A DNA stretch of 64,000 bases from Pirellulales bacterium (GTDB lineage Bacteria > Planctomycetota > Planctomycetia > Pirellulales > JADZDJ01), in NCBI GenBank assembly GCA_020851115.1, contig JADZDJ010000092.1, forward strand, positions 1 to 64,000, given 5' to 3'. The notes under the pieces were generated by a model that searched no databases, was not told the DNA's origin, and was given only the letters and a program-made list of their open reading frames with translations. Positions 17,896 through 63,535 of this stretch are shown piece by piece (positions within the stretch are counted from its first letter, which is position 1; every line of letters begins with the position of its first letter). A program made the translations under genes and the position numbers.

Positions 17896-18927
17896 TTAGT
17901 TAAACAGTCGCCCCTGCGGCCCATTCGATTCATCGGGCGCGGACATGCCCAAATGGTCGTAGCCCATCGGCGTCAGCTTTCTGCCGCGGGGTGTGCGAAT
18001 CACCAGTTCGCTGCGCAACAGAAACGGCTCAACTTCGTCGGAGAGCGTATCGGGAGCGGTATTGAGCGTGTGGGCAACCGCTTCCACGCCGACCGGGCCG
18101 CCGTGAAACACGCGGGCGATCGTATCGAGATATTTACGGTCCTGCCCGTCGAGACCGAGTGTGTCGATGCCTTGCATTTCCAGTGCGGCTTGGGCCACCG
18201 TAAGTGTGATCTCGCCGTTCGCGCGGCTGGTGGCATAATCGCGCACCCAGCGGAGGCGATTGTTCGCCAGCCGCGGCGTGCCGCGGCTGCGAGCCGCGAT
18301 TTCGCGAGCGCTGCGGTCGTCGATCTTCACGCGCAGCTTGGCCGAACTGCGGCGGACGATCTCGCTCAACTCTTCAACCGTATAAAAGTCGAGATGCTCG
18401 CGCATCTGGAACCGGTCGCGCAGCGGGGCCGACAGCAGGCCGGTTCGCGTCGTCGCGCCGATCAGCGTAAAGGGTCGCAGCGGCATGTTGATCGTGCGGG
18501 CATTCACCCCTTCGCCCAGGGTGATGTCGATCCGGAAATCCTCCATCGCCGGATACAAAAACTCTTCGACCGCCTTGGGGAGCCGGTGAATCTCGTCGAT
18601 AAATAGCACCGAGCCTTCCTCGGCGTTCGACAGATAGGGCACGAGGTCTTTCGGGGCCATGAGCGCCGCCCCGCTGGCAATTTGGCAACTCACGCCCAGA
18701 TCGCGTGGAATGCACGTGGCAAAGGTCGTTTTGCCCAATCCTGGCGGCCCATCGAAGAGAATGTGCCCAAGCACTTCACCTCGCTTGCGCGAAGCATCGA
18801 CCGCGATACCGACGCGCTCGGCTACTTCGCGCTGCCCGACCATCTCTCCCATCCGCTGCGGGCGGAGCAAGCGGTCGTCTTCCTCGGGAAGATCGTCGTG
18901 CGGCGGTTGCAAAATGGCTTCGCGCAT
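17896..18927 (-). CDS. ruvB: Holliday junction branch migration helicase RuvB
   Basis: A 343-residue AAA+ motor that drives branch migration with RuvA during recombination. Walker A is GPPGLGKTT (60-68), Walker B LFIDEIHRLPKAVEEFLYPAMED, sensor 1 LIGATTRTGLLSAPLRDRF, and the C-terminal winged helix ends FLLRSELVIRTPRGRKLT. The arginine-finger region normally reads RIANRLLRRVRD but here reads LANNRLRWVRDYA, a small departure. The frame extends to a TTG at 18963, but the ATG at 18927 matches usual length. ruvA and ruvC are not adjacent. Confidence 0.95.
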   Translation of the reverse strand: MREAILQPPHDDLPEEDDRLLRPQRMGEMVGQREVAERVGIAVDASRKRGEVLGHILFDGPPGLGKTTFATCIPRDLGVSCQIASGAALMAPKDLVPYLSNAEEGSVLFIDEIHRLPKAVEEFLYPAMEDFRIDITLGEGVNARTINMPLRPFTLIGATTRTGLLSAPLRDRFQMREHLDFYTVEELSEIVRRSSAKLRVKIDDRSAREIAARSRGTPRLANNRLRWVRDYATSRANGEITLTVAQAALEMQGIDTLGLDGQDRKYLDTIARVFHGGPVGVEAVAHTLNTAPDTLSDEVEPFLLRSELVIRTPRGRKLTPMGYDHLGMSAPDESNGPQGRLFN

Positions 18928-19241
18928 GGCAAGGCAGGCGTCTGAGTTGACCGATGCAAGCAATCTCCCAAGTGAACAAAGTTCTCAACAAAACGCAACC
19001 CCAATTGCGCCTGCTGAAATTCTATCGGAATGTCGAACGATGGGACTCCGCAACCGTGGAATTGTTGGCTTGCGCAGCGAATAGCTCCGGATGTCCTTGA
19101 CCAATGCTTGGCGCGACGTATCCCTTTCTGAAAGCATTCGCTGGGCGGGCAGCCTTGATTGAATGCTTCATGTTTCACCCCGGCTGAGGGCACCAGAGAG
19201 GCCCCGTCTCGCCCCTTGCCCTCAAAATTCTTTCAGCCCTC

Positions 19242-19269
19242 TTGACGCGGCGCACGCCTTTTGTATGAT
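19242..19269 (+). promoter_or_regulatory. Sigma-70 type promoter for candidate small RNA
   Basis: TTGACG at 19242-19247 and TATGAT at 19264-19269 are separated by 16 bases, close to the bacterial consensus. Transcription would begin near 19276. No open reading frame follows; a strong terminator does, about 40 bases on. Confidence 0.7.
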
Positions 19270-19275
19270 CTAAGG

Positions 19276-19355
19276 TACAGTTAGTGAATAAATACAAGGT
19301 ATTCGATTCCACGAAGCCCGCGGCTGGTCCATTCCAGCCAGCGGGTTGTTTTTTT
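19276..19355 (+). ncRNA. Candidate small RNA, about 80 nt
   Basis: Between ruvB and the DHA2 transporter, a promoter (19242-19269) and an intrinsic terminator (19317-19355) bracket a transcript of about 80 bases with no plausible coding sequence. The 5' half is AU rich (AGTTAGTGAATAAATACAAGG), leaving it single-stranded for pairing, and the 3' half is the terminator hairpin with a uridine tail, the layout of a typical trans-acting sRNA. It does not match any riboswitch or known RNA family that I recognise. Target and function unknown. Confidence 0.5.
19317..19355 (+). terminator. Intrinsic terminator
   Basis: An 11-bp stem: CCCGC and GGCTGG (19317-19327) pair with CCAGCC and GCGGG (19334-19345) around a six-base loop, with one bulged A at 19340. 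It is followed by TTGTTTTTTT (19346-19355). This is the clearest rho-independent terminator in the window apart from the one at 63500. Confidence 0.85.
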
Positions 19356-19404
19356 GGCCAGTTGCCATTGGCCACCTACCACACACTGCGGCTCACCAAT
19401 CGCC

Positions 19405-19610
19405 CCTTATTTTCCATCGACCCTCGCCACGCCTCAAACGTCAAAAACACTCGTAAATTCTCGATCCATTTTGCTTGCTCCACCCGAATTTCTGCTCACC
19501 CCCCCCGGAAATGAACCGGAAATCCGCCGCGATCCAATCTCGCGACGGGCTCGAGAAAAACCGACTTTTCGCCCCTTCTCATTTCCACCATAAAAAATTT
19601 TTACAGAAAC
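19405..19610. repeat. Dispersed repeat, copy 1
   Basis: About 206 bases closely resembling 50177-50383 in the same orientation. The first 67 bases are almost identical (one difference), beginning CCTTATTTTCCATCGACC; the rest shares blocks such as CCCCCCCGGAAATGAACCGG and CTCGAGAAAAACCG with indels between. It contains no gene, and I see no clear terminal inverted repeats. It lies in the gap between ruvB and the DHA2 transporter. Confidence 0.85.
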
Positions 19611-19722
19611 CGGAACTCTCAAACCGCTCGCACCGCCTTTTTCCCTGCCTCCCCGCGATCTCTCCATGTCTCAGTGACTCGGCGGTGAAAAGCCCGCGCC
19701 AAGACTCGACGCCATGACAACC

Positions 19723-21315
19723 TCAACTCTGCATCGCTTCCAGCGGATCGACCTCCACCATCGCTTTGCCGTGCGAGCGCGGCATCAGCAGCGTGACCAA
19801 GACTTGGATCATCGCCAGCAGCGCCATGGCCACAAACACCCAGGTCAATCCGGAATCGATCATCGTTCGAACGATCGCCAGCGACTCGGACGGCAATGTC
19901 GATCGCGTGTGTGGATCCATGATCGACGCCGGGCTGACGCCCAGGCTGCGCAACTGTTCCATCTGCGCGGCAGCCAGCACGTTGAACAGCATCCCCAACA
20001 AACCGATGCCCACCGCACCCCCCATCGTACGAAAGAATTGAATCGCGCTGGTGACGATGCCACGCTGTCCCCAAGCGACGACATCTTGGGCGGACAGCAA
20101 GTACGGCATCGAGACCGAGCCAAACCCCACGCCGCCGACCACAAGCACGCTCGCCAACACCCAGCCAGACGCCTCCGCCACCGCGCAGGCCACCAAGCCC
20201 GTAAAGCTGATCGCCGCCAGCAGGCTGCCGGCCACGGCAACGCGGCGAAATCCCCAGCGAATCAGCAGCGGCGCGACAAAGATACCGCTAGCGGCCCAGG
20301 CGAACATCAGCGGCGTTATCACGCCCGCGGCGGCCGATGCGTCGCCGCCGGTGGTTCCTTGTACATAAAGCGGAACGTAGGTTTCGACGCCGAAGAACAA
20401 CACGCCCATCAGCGCGCTGCCGACCAGCGCTGGGCCGATGCCGCGGTGCATCATGAGTTCGAGCGGGAAAATCGGATTGCTCGCTCGCCGCTCGACGCGC
20501 ACAAACCAGGCAAATCCCACCACGAAAACGGCCAACAGCAGCGACGCGACCAGCCAAGGCGAGTCCGTCGATCCCACCACGGATACCAATCCCAACAGCG
20601 CCGAACATGCGATGGCCAACAGCGCAACCCCCGGCAAATCGAGACTGGTCGCCTGCGGCTGCTCTCGATCGTGATAGTGCCATGCCAACACGCCAAGTCC
20701 CAGCGCGCCCAGCGGCAGATTCACAAAGAAGATCGATCGCCAGCCGAACGCATTCACCAAAACCGCGCCGATGGCCGGTCCAGCCAGCGCCGAAGTGCCC
20801 CAAACAGCGCTAAACCAACCTTGAATCTTGGCCCGCTCTTCGAGCGTGAAGATATCGCCCAAAATCGTCAGCACGACGGGCATGATGCCCCCGGCTCCCA
20901 AACCTTGAAGACCGCGGTACACAATCAATTGCCACATCGACTGCGAGGTGGACGCCAGCACCGATGCGCCGCAGAACAAGCCGATCGAAAACAGCACGAC
21001 CGGCTTGCGACCCAACGCATCGGCCAGGCGGCCATAGAGCGGCATGGTCACCGTACACATCAGCAAGTAAACCGAAGTGACCCAAGCATAGTGCTCCAGC
21101 CCGTGCAGTTCGCCGATGATTGTCGGCATGGCCGTGCTGGTAATGGTCATTTCCATGGCCGCCAGCACCATCACGGTCATCAAGGCGGCCGTCACCCAGC
21201 CGCGATGCAGATGAATCAGTGGCTGGGTCGGCGAATTGGCAGGCTTTCCCTCCGTTTGCCCGACTGTCTCGGCTTCGCCGCTGTGCGCCGATGGTGTCGA
21301 GGTCTCAAGTCTCAC
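19723..21315 (-). CDS. DHA2-family MFS drug exporter
   Basis: A protein of about 530 residues with 14 predicted membrane segments, as in EmrB/QacA proton-driven multidrug exporters. Family hallmarks are AAMEMTITSTAMPTIIGEL in helix 1, the loop LYGRLADALGRKPVV (motif A) and GLGAGGIMPVVLTILGDIF with AGPAIGAVLVNAFGWRSIFFVNLPLGALGL (motif C). An N-terminal cytoplasmic arm of about 35 Ser/Thr/Pro-rich residues precedes helix 1. Starts are unclear: TTG at 21360 or GTG at 21315 both lack a strong ribosome site. No regulator or outer-membrane partner is adjacent, so the substrate cannot be inferred. Confidence 0.9.
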   Translation of the reverse strand: MRLETSTPSAHSGEAETVGQTEGKPANSPTQPLIHLHRGWVTAALMTVMVLAAMEMTITSTAMPTIIGELHGLEHYAWVTSVYLLMCTVTMPLYGRLADALGRKPVVLFSIGLFCGASVLASTSQSMWQLIVYRGLQGLGAGGIMPVVLTILGDIFTLEERAKIQGWFSAVWGTSALAGPAIGAVLVNAFGWRSIFFVNLPLGALGLGVLAWHYHDREQPQATSLDLPGVALLAIACSALLGLVSVVGSTDSPWLVASLLLAVFVVGFAWFVRVERRASNPIFPLELMMHRGIGPALVGSALMGVLFFGVETYVPLYVQGTTGGDASAAAGVITPLMFAWAASGIFVAPLLIRWGFRRVAVAGSLLAAISFTGLVACAVAEASGWVLASVLVVGGVGFGSVSMPYLLSAQDVVAWGQRGIVTSAIQFFRTMGGAVGIGLLGMLFNVLAAAQMEQLRSLGVSPASIMDPHTRSTLPSESLAIVRTMIDSGLTWVFVAMALLAMIQVLVTLLMPRSHGKAMVEVDPLEAMQS

Positions 21316-21548
21316 GGCAACGATACGTCCTCTGGCGATCGCTTGGGTACCGATGCCCAAGGGGATGACCGGGGCAAGATCAAAGTTCGGTCGAAGGCGG
21401 GGAAAATCGTAGTGTATCGAATGCGACCAATTATTCTACGGCCAATGCGAGTGGCGTTTCCACGAATCGCATTGCGCTCGGCCGCCGGATTACAAAATTG
21501 CCAGACTGCAGATTCCCCCAAGTCGAGAGCGCCGAGGTCCATCGAGAT

Positions 21549-46189: not shown

Positions 46190-48262
46190 TCAATCAATCA
46201 TTTCTCGGGCGATCGCTGTTCCCTCAGTTCTTGCGTCGAGCAGCCTACCGAGTCCTGCAATCTCATAGACATCCGAGAGCGTCGTTAGAAGTTGTCCAAA
46301 CATGACAATTCGACAATCATTCGCAGACAGCTTCAAGCCGATGTCACGAAGCCGGATCAGCTTCTCCTCTGCCACAATCATAGCGGCCTCCACGCGATTG
46401 GCTTTCCACGAACGGGACTTTTTGCGGCACACAAGAATGATGTCCAGTTGAATGGGCTCCTTCGCCTGACTCTTTGGCGTAGCAACTGACATTTCAGACT
46501 TCACTGGGTGGGAATTGACGATCACAAATCCGGCCCCCAGAACTGCATTCGCCACCGCCTCCCATCCTTCGTTTCGCGAATGATGGTAGGTAAACACGAG
46601 CAAGCCGTTATCGACCATAACTCGGTGGCACTCGCGAAATACGTCTTGCAGCTTCTTTGTGAATCCATCCACTTTAGTATCTTGCACCTCACAGCTATGG
46701 CGAGTTGACCGTGCAATATCGCCATTCTGCCACTCAAGCTGTTGCCAGGCGTAAAAGAAGTCCGCCAACTCTGAATAATGTACGTTGTCAAAGAAAGGAG
46801 GGTCAGTGACTACCAAGTCAACACTTTTAGACTGCAGACCTGATTCGGCCGAATCTCCACAGGAGATCGCGATGCCTCGATCCGGAATTGTATCGTTCGA
46901 TGGCCACTCCATCAGCTGACCCGAGAAAGGTTCCGAACATACCTTTCCTTTGGTGCCGTTGTTCCCATAGATTTCAATTGGTTCTTCACGGTACTGAAGT
47001 GCCCGAAGTAATCTTGACTTGAAAAGATTTAAGAAAGATCCCGAACTCTTCGGCGTCCCCCAAACATTCGCCTCGAGCGGAGTGCGCTCAGGCTTCAGGA
47101 TGTGATGCGAGAACATGTGGCGAACAGCACCGGTGCCTTCGCCCTTGTACGACGCGAAGAGGTTGTTGAACTCCAAAAGACCAGAAAAGAGAGTTTGAAT
47201 CACTCGGCGGGCATCACCATCCTCAATCTGATTGATGGCTGCGCTCAACCACCCCAATGCAAGCAACTGCCGAGAATTAAAGAAGTCTCGCCAGGATCTG
47301 AAGTTATATCCTATTGCCTGCCGCGTATTGAACCCGTCAGCCAGTCTGAGAGAGGGAATCGAAATCGAATTCCGCCCCAATTCTTCTGCGAGTCTTCTTT
47401 CGCACGCAGCGAATGCCGCCAAGTCCTCACTATTCGCCATCAGATACTGCTTCTGGTTATCGCATGTCAAAACAAGCTTGCCAAACAGCTTAAAAGTCGG
47501 CCGGTCATCAGTAGCCTGAATCGTCTTCGCAACTACAAAAGAGTTATTGCAATGAACGCATGAAGCCTTGCTGCCATTTGCCGGGCCATTTGCTTTCACG
47601 AAGCGGTGAGCACAGCAAGTACATTCTACTTCGATGTCGGTGTAGATCCCTTGGAAGATCCATCCACACTGTGGGCATACAACTTGTATTTCGGGTTTTC
47701 GTTTTGGGTAAGCATTGCGGGCGATAACATATGATGAGAACAAGTCGACGGGGAATTGACAATCGGGGCACCCGACTTGCATGACCCAGAAGTAATACAG
47801 CACGTCACAGGGCCGGCCACGTCTGTCTGTTGTGATGTAAAGTTCTCGAATCTTGCGACCAACTCCACGATCTAGTTCTTTGAACACTCGGTCAAGTGCT
47901 CGGCGATTCATTGGTCCGAGTGCAACCTTTACAGCGTTTGTCGCTACAGGATTAATGTCGCGACCGAGGCTCTTGAGGCCCAGCTTGTGCGCCTCGCCAA
48001 TTGTCGTCCCTGACCCCATAAATGGGTCGAAGACAGCTGTCGAGGATACTGGTCGAGTGTGATAGAACTCTTTTGTGATGTCATCGCTCTCGTCGAGCTC
48101 ACATCCCAGTAGGATGCCCCGAAAAACTGAACCGAGTCGCTTCGCCCACCACTTGTGTACGTGGTAAACGGGCCTATGGATTTCCTTTCGCCAACTTTCG
48201 CGCTCACCAATCTGCGAAAGAAACTCGAAGGGAAATGAATCGACCTCAATTAACTTCGCCAC
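46190..48262 (-). CDS. DNA methyltransferase with zinc-ribbon insert (restriction-modification partner)
   Basis: A protein of about 690 residues resembling DUF1156-type adenine/N4-cytosine methylases. HVHKWWAKRLGSVFRGILL is the N-terminal lobe, FDPFMGSGTTIGEA (about 78-91) the SAM loop and VVTDPPFFDNVHYSELADFFYAW (DPPF at about 487-490) the catalytic loop typical of amino-methylases. Between them lie four CxxC pairs (about 165/168, 196/199, 214/217, 235/238), suggesting two zinc ribbons for DNA recognition. The GTG at 48262 begins two bases after the nuclease stop; upstream in-frame residues overlap the nuclease gene and are not family-like. GC content and codon use are lower than in the flanks. 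It should protect host DNA from the adjacent nuclease. Confidence 0.85.
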   Translation of the reverse strand: MAKLIEVDSFPFEFLSQIGERESWRKEIHRPVYHVHKWWAKRLGSVFRGILLGCELDESDDITKEFYHTRPVSSTAVFDPFMGSGTTIGEAHKLGLKSLGRDINPVATNAVKVALGPMNRRALDRVFKELDRGVGRKIRELYITTDRRGRPCDVLYYFWVMQVGCPDCQFPVDLFSSYVIARNAYPKRKPEIQVVCPQCGWIFQGIYTDIEVECTCCAHRFVKANGPANGSKASCVHCNNSFVVAKTIQATDDRPTFKLFGKLVLTCDNQKQYLMANSEDLAAFAACERRLAEELGRNSISIPSLRLADGFNTRQAIGYNFRSWRDFFNSRQLLALGWLSAAINQIEDGDARRVIQTLFSGLLEFNNLFASYKGEGTGAVRHMFSHHILKPERTPLEANVWGTPKSSGSFLNLFKSRLLRALQYREEPIEIYGNNGTKGKVCSEPFSGQLMEWPSNDTIPDRGIAISCGDSAESGLQSKSVDLVVTDPPFFDNVHYSELADFFYAWQQLEWQNGDIARSTRHSCEVQDTKVDGFTKKLQDVFRECHRVMVDNGLLVFTYHHSRNEGWEAVANAVLGAGFVIVNSHPVKSEMSVATPKSQAKEPIQLDIILVCRKKSRSWKANRVEAAMIVAEEKLIRLRDIGLKLSANDCRIVMFGQLLTTLSDVYEIAGLGRLLDARTEGTAIAREMID

Positions 48263-48264
48263 AG

Positions 48265-49056
48265 CTATTCGCTCTCCTCGCCATCTGTTTCCTCGGACTC
48301 CAGTTCCTCGCCATTGACGAGTCGCATCTTCACAGGGGTGGTCGCCGAACCTACCAGACGCCACGCACGAAAGTGATGCTGCCTTCCTGCATGTGGATTC
48401 GGGATCGTTTCCGCCATAATTTTATTCGCCTGGAGGTTGAATGAGTAGCCAACGATGAGGTCAGAAGCCTCTGTGCGTACTAGCGCACCCACCTCGAAGA
48501 AATCATCACCCGGAACAAATTTGTCTGGCAACACCAGTGTCTGGTGATGGGCGGAGCCTTCAATCAGTCGGAACGGGGTTGGAACAACGTACATCTTTCG
48601 ATCACGAATCATGATGTCCCCGTAACTGCCAAAACCTTTGACGTTACGGTTCTTGTGGACGTAGTTGTGATTTGCGTTCAAGAAGTCTCCGTGGCATACA
48701 ACGAGGTCCAGAACGGGATACGTGTCTCCGTCAGGTTTTTTCGGGTATCGACCAAACACGTAGTAAATCGAACGGCCATTGTGAGAACCGGTGGGTACCT
48801 GGCTGTTAGCGTCGTAAGTTGCGTCACGTCCTGGGTAGGCAAGACCTTTGAGTTCGTACCCGTCGGTCACCTCGACAAGGCTGAAGTCTGGGTAGCTGTT
48901 CCTACCTCCGGATTCAAACAGGAAGGTGGTTTTCTGAAGCCTGGACTTGAACCAGTTCTGGAAATGAAACTCCTTGTCCTGACGACTTACTCGCCGGATC
49001 AGAACTTTTCTGTTGATAGCCTCGACGCAGCATTTGAAAACCTGAGCAACACTCAT
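48265..49056 (-). CDS. Putative type II restriction endonuclease (PD-(D/E)XK)
   Basis: A 263-residue protein that I do not match to a named enzyme. Its N-terminal 80 residues carry a PD-(D/E)xK nuclease site: SYPDFSLVEVTDGYELKGLAYPG with Asp57, Glu68 and Lys70 in the canonical spacing. Later segments are DLVVCHGDFLNANHNYVHKN and a beta-rich C-terminus with an acidic tail. The ATG at 49056 follows AAGGA at a good distance; the frame extends to 49194 without similarity. It is the first gene of a two-gene operon with the methylase, which starts two bases after its stop. Restriction function follows from fold motif plus partner. Confidence 0.75.
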   Translation of the reverse strand: MSVAQVFKCCVEAINRKVLIRRVSRQDKEFHFQNWFKSRLQKTTFLFESGGRNSYPDFSLVEVTDGYELKGLAYPGRDATYDANSQVPTGSHNGRSIYYVFGRYPKKPDGDTYPVLDLVVCHGDFLNANHNYVHKNRNVKGFGSYGDIMIRDRKMYVVPTPFRLIEGSAHHQTLVLPDKFVPGDDFFEVGALVRTEASDLIVGYSFNLQANKIMAETIPNPHAGRQHHFRAWRLVGSATTPVKMRLVNGEELESEETDGEESE

Positions 49057-49324
49057 CTCGATTCCTTGGACCCTCAACGACTTCGGAAGCATCGGCAACC
49101 GGATATAAGATCGATCGCGGTGCTCCCAAATAATACGTGTTGTATCATAACCGGCTGCGCCAAAACAGGATGCGGCATAAAGTCTGATCAGCAAGTAAGT
49201 GAAGTGGGAAGAGCGCAGCCCAACCGAGATGGAATTCAGAACATTTCTTCAGATTTCCGTGGAGGATCCTACCGCCCTCGCGTGGATTAGTGAAATAGGG
49301 GCCGCAGCGCCTCAAAGAGGATAG

Positions 49325-49595: not shown

Positions 49596-50176
49596 ACGCC
49601 CGGAATCGACGAGTAGGCGGAAGAAAAGCCAGTCGTCTCGACCACGAGTGAAGCGTTGGGCTGGGCAAACAACTTAGCGAAGCATTCACAGGCGTACAAC
49701 CAGACGGTGTATCGAGCCCCGAAAACATCCTTTAGTGGAGGCCGACTTGGTCCTGACACAGAAAAGGCCACATTAATTTTGGGGGAAGATAAAGTGGTAG
49801 GAGCCGATTCTTGAGCTTCGTGCTTTCGTGATCCGATTATCGCTCGGCAGCCCTGATCCCAAATATCTAATCACTCGCCCCTTGACAGCCACCTATACAT
49901 GCGATAACATGAACAGGCCAGCACCATCGCTGGCGCGATCCGCAGTGCCGAACAGCATGTTGTGGCCGACGATCTTTGACAAGATAAACTACGCACATCG
50001 CTACCTGCGGCCACTGTCCGGCCGTGTCGCAGTTCGCTCCAGGCTCATTGCTTGACGGCTTCCTTCATGCCCGCTCCGCGCTTTTGCATGAGGTTGCCGA
50101 TTTGCTCATGGGCGGATCAAGCAGCGTTCAAAAGCGAGAAAAGGAACCTGGATCAACGGTCATCCAGCAGCCACCT
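49596..50176. other. Accessory DNA without a supported gene
   Basis: Includes a good sigma-70 type promoter pair on the plus strand at 49882-49910 (TTGACA, 17-base spacer, TAACAT), but no supported gene follows before the dispersed repeat at 50177. It may be a leftover promoter. Confidence 0.4.
49882..49910 (+). promoter_or_regulatory. Orphan sigma-70 type promoter
   Basis: TTGACA (49882-49887) and TAACAT (49905-49910) are 17 bases apart. Transcription would start near 49917 and run into the dispersed repeat at 50177; no gene is visible downstream on that strand until 50687. Confidence 0.35.
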
Positions 50177-50383
50177 CCTTATTTTCCATCGACCCTCGCC
50201 ACGCCTCAAACCTCAAAAACACTCGTAAATTCTCGATCCATTTCGCTTCCACCTCCCAGTTTTATGCGTACCCCCCCGGAAATGAACCGGAAATGAATTC
50301 CGCAAGAATCTTCGCGACGCTCGAGAAAAACCGCACGTCTCCCGCCCCTTCATTTCCACACAAAAAGTATTTTGTAAAAATCC
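50177..50383. repeat. Dispersed repeat, copy 2
   Basis: Second copy of the repeat at 19405-19610, same orientation, about 207 bases. The first 67 bases differ at one position; the GGAAATGAACCGGAAAT block and the CTCGAGAAAAACCG block are shared, with substitutions and indels elsewhere. Ends in AAAAGTATTTTGTAAAAATCC, comparable to the AT-rich end of copy 1. Confidence 0.85.
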
Positions 50384-63288: not shown

Positions 63289-63499
63289 GACCGCATTGTA
63301 CTGATTTTTCGCTTGACCCCGACGCCCCCGTCGTCTAAAGTTTTGGCAGACGGCCTGCCGATCAATTGCAGAGCTTGAGTTTCTCATTTTTTAGTGAATT
63401 TTCGCAAAATTGACCAACCTACAGCTTAGCTTGTCGAGCTCGTTATTGCTTGCTCCCAGCAGGCCGTAGGGTTTTTGCACACTTGCTAAACACAAGACG

Positions 63500-63535
63500 A
63501 ACCCCAGGGCCCGATGACGGCCATGGGGTTTTTTA
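63500..63535 (+). terminator. Strong intrinsic terminator in the leuA leader
   Basis: AACCCCA (63500-63506) with GGCC pairs with GGCC and TGGGGTT (63518-63530), forming an 11-bp GC-rich stem with a seven-base loop and one unpaired base, followed by TTTTTT. It lies about 200 bases before leuA on its strand. TTG and CTA leucine codons (63483-63488) stand just before the stem, as in an attenuator. Confidence 0.75.

Follow-up and report, generated by a model that had tools for sequence, protein, structure and literature searches.

The segment at positions 19242-19355 of the window, as we call the whole 64,000-nt stretch of Pirellulales DNA that was analysed, is probably the promoter end of a diverged copy of an interspersed repeat, whose transcript would be stopped after about 80 nt by a terminator acquired locally. 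The short RNA would most likely be a by-product without a trans-acting role. As reported in the initial annotation, a promoter (TTGACG-N16-TATGAT) and a hairpin with a T tail were found in this segment (Table 1), and the promoter scan matched the former to 10 of 12 consensus positions. Transcription by RNA polymerase is predicted to begin near 19276 and to end around 19355, yielding an RNA of approximately 80 nt; none of 200 shuffles of this predicted transcript folded as stably as the native sequence. The position and the T tail of the annotated terminator proved right, but the stem, given there as 11 bp, contains 13 bp with one bulge, spanning 19315-19347 and followed by GTTTTTTT at 19348-19355. 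The absence of a coding sequence between promoter and terminator was likewise borne out. An open reading frame that starts with GTG and encodes 76 aa (19284-19514) passes through the terminator into the repeat core and gave no match in a Pfam search, and it was rejected as a small-protein gene on both grounds. Elsewhere in the window, positions 63499-63532 form a nearly symmetrical hairpin that has a T-rich tail on each strand and appears to be a bidirectional terminator.

Table 1. Features of the window discussed in the text.
Feature	Position	Strand	Evidence or details
ruvB, divergent neighbour	17896..18927	-	Pfam RuvB_N 1.2e-61, RuvB_C 1.1e-24
Promoter and first part of leader, putatively homologous to the B subfamily	19196..19320	+	HMM; alignment versus shuffles
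Sigma-70-type promoter	19242..19269	+	-35 TTGACG 19242-19247; spacer 16 bp; -10 TATGAT 19264-19269
Predicted transcript of ~80 nt	19276..19355	+	Fold -28.9 kcal/mol, z -4.87; start and end predicted
Weak 5' hairpin of predicted transcript	19284..19312	+	Folding
Intrinsic terminator	19315..19355	+	13-bp stem (one A bulged), loop of 6 nt, T7 tail; found in this copy only
Repeat core (~50 copies), C-rich, G-poor, rut-like	19403..19612	+	34-mer match; alignment; C minus G
MFS transporter gene, convergent neighbour	19723..21360	-	Pfam MFS_1 1.2e-49
Promoter of second window copy ('mod'), TTGACA-N17-TAACAT	49882..49910	+	Repeat-copy comparison
boxA-like GATCTTTGACAA of second window copy	49971..49982	+	Motif as in relatives' rRNA-leader boxA
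Core of second repeat copy in window	50177..50373	+	Repeat search; 34-mer; C minus G

The promoter-terminator unit lies on the plus strand between ruvB and the convergent MFS gene, and no gene was recognised on the plus strand of this gap, so neither the promoter nor the terminator is likely to belong to a neighbour on that strand. The window copy would drive no gene, because the next gene, encoding the MFS transporter, points the opposite way, and the terminator would prevent the synthesis of RNA antisense to that gene. The region upstream of ruvB was not syntenic in two other members of the family or in three other genomes; when genome contigs were searched, the MFS neighbour yielded no relative and ruvB yielded distant planctomycetes only.

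Searching the whole intergenic region revealed that the 210 bp at 19403-19612, beginning 47 nt past the terminator, are the core of a repeat. The core in the window contains an exact match to a 34-mer that, with up to three mismatches allowed, identified 50 copies in the genome and none for the reversed control, and it is about 80% identical to the other copies. Alignment of 47 copies showed little or no variation over much of the first ~130 bases of the core. Apart from one short 33-nt match, the core had no counterpart in 196 other genomes of the order. The copies share a layout in which a strong sigma-70-type promoter is followed by a leader of 93-273 nt and then by the conserved, C-rich 210-nt core. 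Among the 42 copies whose left flank extended for 330 nt, a promoter matching at least 10 of 12 positions occurred within 330 nt upstream on the core strand in 39 and on the other strand in none, although the promoters of a given subfamily duplicate one another and these counts therefore represent few independent events. By comparison, promoters of this quality were present in the right flanks of 5 of 37 copies on the core strand and of 1 of 37 on the other. By left flank, 24 of 42 copies belong to a type designated 'mod', homologous to about -500, and 12 of 42 to a type designated B, homologous to about -190, with a few others. Promoter sequence varies from type to type, with at least four types distinguished (mod, B and those of copies L183 and L185), which indicates that the link of a promoter with a core behind it has arisen or been retained more than once. 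The ~50 copies in the genome include L157-L196 and L283-L292, and many assembly contigs end at or near a copy.

The window copy carries both the 210-bp core and an upstream promoter on the core strand, and its promoter region resembles that of the B type. A hidden Markov model of the B left flank, built with this copy left out, had its best match in the 64-kb window at 19210-19259 (envelope 19195-19314, E 0.0036), on the strand and the side of the core where it was expected. When the segment was aligned to B copies, only 2 of 2000 shuffles scored as well as the upstream part and 26 of 2000 as well as the leader; the evidence for homology to B consists of a divergent promoter region, with an E value of 0.0036 over the 64 kb, and a leader that matches weakly. 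The leader showed no resemblance to 'mod' leaders (1299 of 2000 shuffles scoring as well), nor did the terminator segment to B leaders (856 of 2000). Furthermore, of the 39 promoter-bearing copies, none but the window copy has a strong terminator in the stretch from promoter to core. With a B-like promoter and leader and a terminator foreign to B, the best reading of the unit is a B-type promoter and the first ~45 nt of a B-type leader, joined to a hairpin present in this copy only. In the other copies, the transcript would instead enter the rut-like core, giving short Rho-limited transcripts or Rho-attenuated leaders.

How far the promoter and the terminator by themselves argue for transcription was assessed against shuffled sequence. 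A pair was defined as a promoter matching at least 10 of 12 positions with a hairpin of -20 kcal/mol or lower and a T tail within 160 nt. One such pair was obtained in 300 dinucleotide shuffles of the 64-kb window, and at this rate about 0.25 chance pairs are expected over the whole 5.2-Mb genome; for this reason the pair on its own is suggestive and not proof of a transcription unit. Weaker promoter-like and terminator-like strings were not clearly enriched in the region when it was scanned. The consensus TTGAC-N16-18-TATNAT, by contrast with its reversed control, occurred 27 times genome-wide versus 4, and is therefore a real promoter signal in this genome. That promoter-like and terminator-like strings merely lie close together here and nothing is transcribed would agree with the expected 0.25 pairs and with the lack of conservation of the unit. 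We nevertheless regard such a coincidence as very improbable, given that the promoter sits where nearly all other repeat copies have theirs and on the same strand, that its region matches the B type, and that its consensus is enriched genome-wide. A promoter of this consensus followed by TTTTTT 50-80 nt on was found 14 times in 40 genomes versus none for the control; two of these places are in this genome, and none of the 12 in the 39 relatives resembles 19242-19355 in sequence. A second unit of promoter, hairpin and T6 in this genome (L208, G000:C286:2740-2826; TTGACA and TATGAT; predicted transcript of 53 nt, -24.5 kcal/mol) is likewise unrelated to it in sequence.

The initial annotation had proposed a small RNA candidate, and a short, gene-free promoter-to-terminator unit is indeed plausible; what found no support is a dedicated regulatory sRNA gene. 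Such a gene would produce an RNA of ~80 nt that pairs with mRNAs, the adjacent repeat being either coincidental or the source of the promoter. In its favour are the full architecture of promoter and terminator, reached once in 300 shuffles, the strong fold, and a terminator that is specific to the window copy and not leader sequence, as though acquired so as to yield a discrete RNA. However, the unit is single-copy in the genome, and a DNA search of 296 other genomes of the order detected no relative. The covariance search that the annotation had suggested, run in 39 related genomes, reached a best E of 0.013 and likewise detected no relative of the unit. Conservation therefore lends no support to a regulatory sRNA; the nearest genomes compared belong to another genus, though, so the lack of conservation at that distance would be compatible with a young RNA. 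As for joint conservation of promoter and stem, by which the annotation was to stand or fall, the promoter is common to other repeat copies but the stem is absent from them. Searches of 40 and 297 genomes with the unit returned short matches only (E at least 1.5e-4), and most of those inspected fell within genes or in hairpins unrelated to it. Rfam gave no match for the unit, and nothing in 18950-19730 up to an E of 5. Hfq (PF17209) was absent at E 0.01 with the controls detected, in a genome that is 98.8% complete, where a missed gene is possible, and this counts against an Hfq-dependent sRNA. Thus, although 19242-19355 resembles standalone bacterial sRNA genes in having a promoter and an intrinsic terminator that bound a short noncoding segment, it differs from them in having no conservation, Hfq or Rfam match and in a promoter and leader that belong to a repeat, and we consider a dedicated sRNA unlikely. 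One point speaks against the reading as a diverged repeat copy with an acquired terminator: the retention of so strong a terminator 47 nt ahead of the core could mean that a separate RNA is under selection. A repeat-borne promoter joined by one acquired terminator would also be a possible route to an sRNA gene. More generally, when a promoter and a terminator are the only grounds for calling an sRNA candidate, the candidate can turn out to be a repeat-borne promoter, and it was the search for copy number that changed the reading here. The open-access literature yielded nothing on small RNAs or on such repeats in planctomycetes.

The genes to the right of the repeat copies are of many different kinds. 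As judged by a home-made codon-usage gene caller, the right-hand gene ran in the same direction as the repeat in 8 of 9 readable B copies, compared with 11 of 23 'mod' copies. This bias among B copies raises the alternative that the repeat is a 5' regulatory leader of genes, combining a promoter with a Rho/Nus attenuator, and that the window copy is a decayed leader whose gene has been lost or inverted, with the hairpin as debris or a repaired end. The genes that follow B copies, as read from their translations, include those for an RpoD-type sigma factor, a NuoI-type ferredoxin, an ABC permease and a glycosyltransferase; the rut-like core and the boxA of the 'mod' subfamily would suit an attenuator as well. 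Yet 8 of 9 is a small sample, the 'mod' copies have no orientation preference (11:12), and the downstream genes are mutually unrelated, which fits insertion equally. A role as a gene leader is accordingly a doubtful explanation of the window copy, one we hold to be quite unlikely.

The composition of the core resembles that of a Rho-loading (rut) site, being a long C-rich, G-poor and unstructured stretch, and Rho may act on it. On the strand of the promoter, the C minus G value of 27 in 78 nt within the window core is the maximum for either strand of the window, tied with one other place, and the core of the second copy has the next-highest value. Values of 26-27 per 78 nt fall in the top ~0.01% of windows, and there are 33 YC dimers per 110 nt, roughly double the mean of 15; an excess of C over G indicates Rho loading only crudely, and since the core is shared by all copies, these figures amount to one observation and not fifty. 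The core as an RNA with covarying stems was unsupported, and its conserved first half was predicted to be mostly unpaired.

The 'mod' subfamily carries an additional set of signals. In these copies (for example, L158:937-1154), the promoter is followed by GC-rich stem-loops and then by the boxA-like GATCTTTGACAATT. The same GATCTTTGACAATT is found in the rRNA leader of one relative, G(C/G)TCTTTGACAATT in those of three others and GATCTTTGACATGTT in that of a fifth, so that the motif agrees exactly or nearly with the boxA that precedes 16S rRNA in five relatives of the same lineage, suggesting that Nus factors may act on 'mod' copies through boxA. This match is confined to the 'mod' subfamily, and boxA is absent from the window's own B-like unit. 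The assembly of this genome itself yielded no 16S gene. The 'mod' hairpins displayed one-sided changes only, with no compensatory ones. With its promoter, GC-rich stem-loops and GATCTTTGACAATT, the 'mod' type resembles the leader of an rRNA operon, but its copies are followed by the C-rich core and no rRNA. In the suhB 5' UTR of Escherichia coli, boxA has been shown experimentally to adjoin a region of Rho termination (PMC5725501). If the core is a rut site, 'mod' copies would have the same order of promoter, boxA and Rho region within a few hundred nucleotides, for which suhB would be a working precedent; suhB, however, has a single gene leader established by experiment, whereas 'mod' is part of a repeat of ~50 copies known here from sequence alone.

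A more far-reaching, and in our view rather improbable, proposal is that the ~50 copies constitute a mobile transcription unit assembled from elongation-control signals, namely a strong promoter, an rRNA-type stem-loop with boxA in one subfamily and a Rho-loading core. It would disperse promoters governed by Nus and Rho, some of them before housekeeping genes, and the window copy would have become a discrete sRNA gene by gaining a terminator. Should the repeat family function in the way its components imply, promoters with built-in elongation control (boxA and a Rho site) would be spread by a mobile element, which would bear on gene rewiring in planctomycetes, whose transcription has received little study.

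The repeat is presumably mobile, and small mobile sequences with putative promoters are known in the Correia/NEMIS repeats of Neisseria (PMC2229807). Like these, the planctomycete repeat is dispersed, short, mainly intergenic, specific to a genome group and equipped with putative promoters; Correia elements can alter the transcription of their neighbours, as the planctomycete repeat may do too. Correia elements, however, are ~100-155 bp long, are bounded by terminal inverted repeats and carry putative divergent promoters, whereas the planctomycete repeat spans ~370-740 bp, its ends being mapped to within tens of bases, has a promoter that points one way into the core, and displayed no terminal inverted repeats by eye. 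Three 'mod' copies are adjoined at their left edge by fragments of a group II intron (RF02005), located at 49610-49841, L166:1891-2023 (minus strand) and L173:1745-1918 (minus strand), of which two scored above the gathering score and that of L173 below it. Near the second copy in the window, a DNA methylase gene (N6_N4_Mtase, 46190-48364, minus strand) overlaps the end of a 309-aa open reading frame (48265-49194, minus strand) that had no Pfam match, and 46190-49194 may be a restriction-modification locus. In one repeat copy (L291:1282-1561, minus strand), the 11-bp unit CCGGAAATGAA, present twice in other copies, is expanded to about seven tandem copies.
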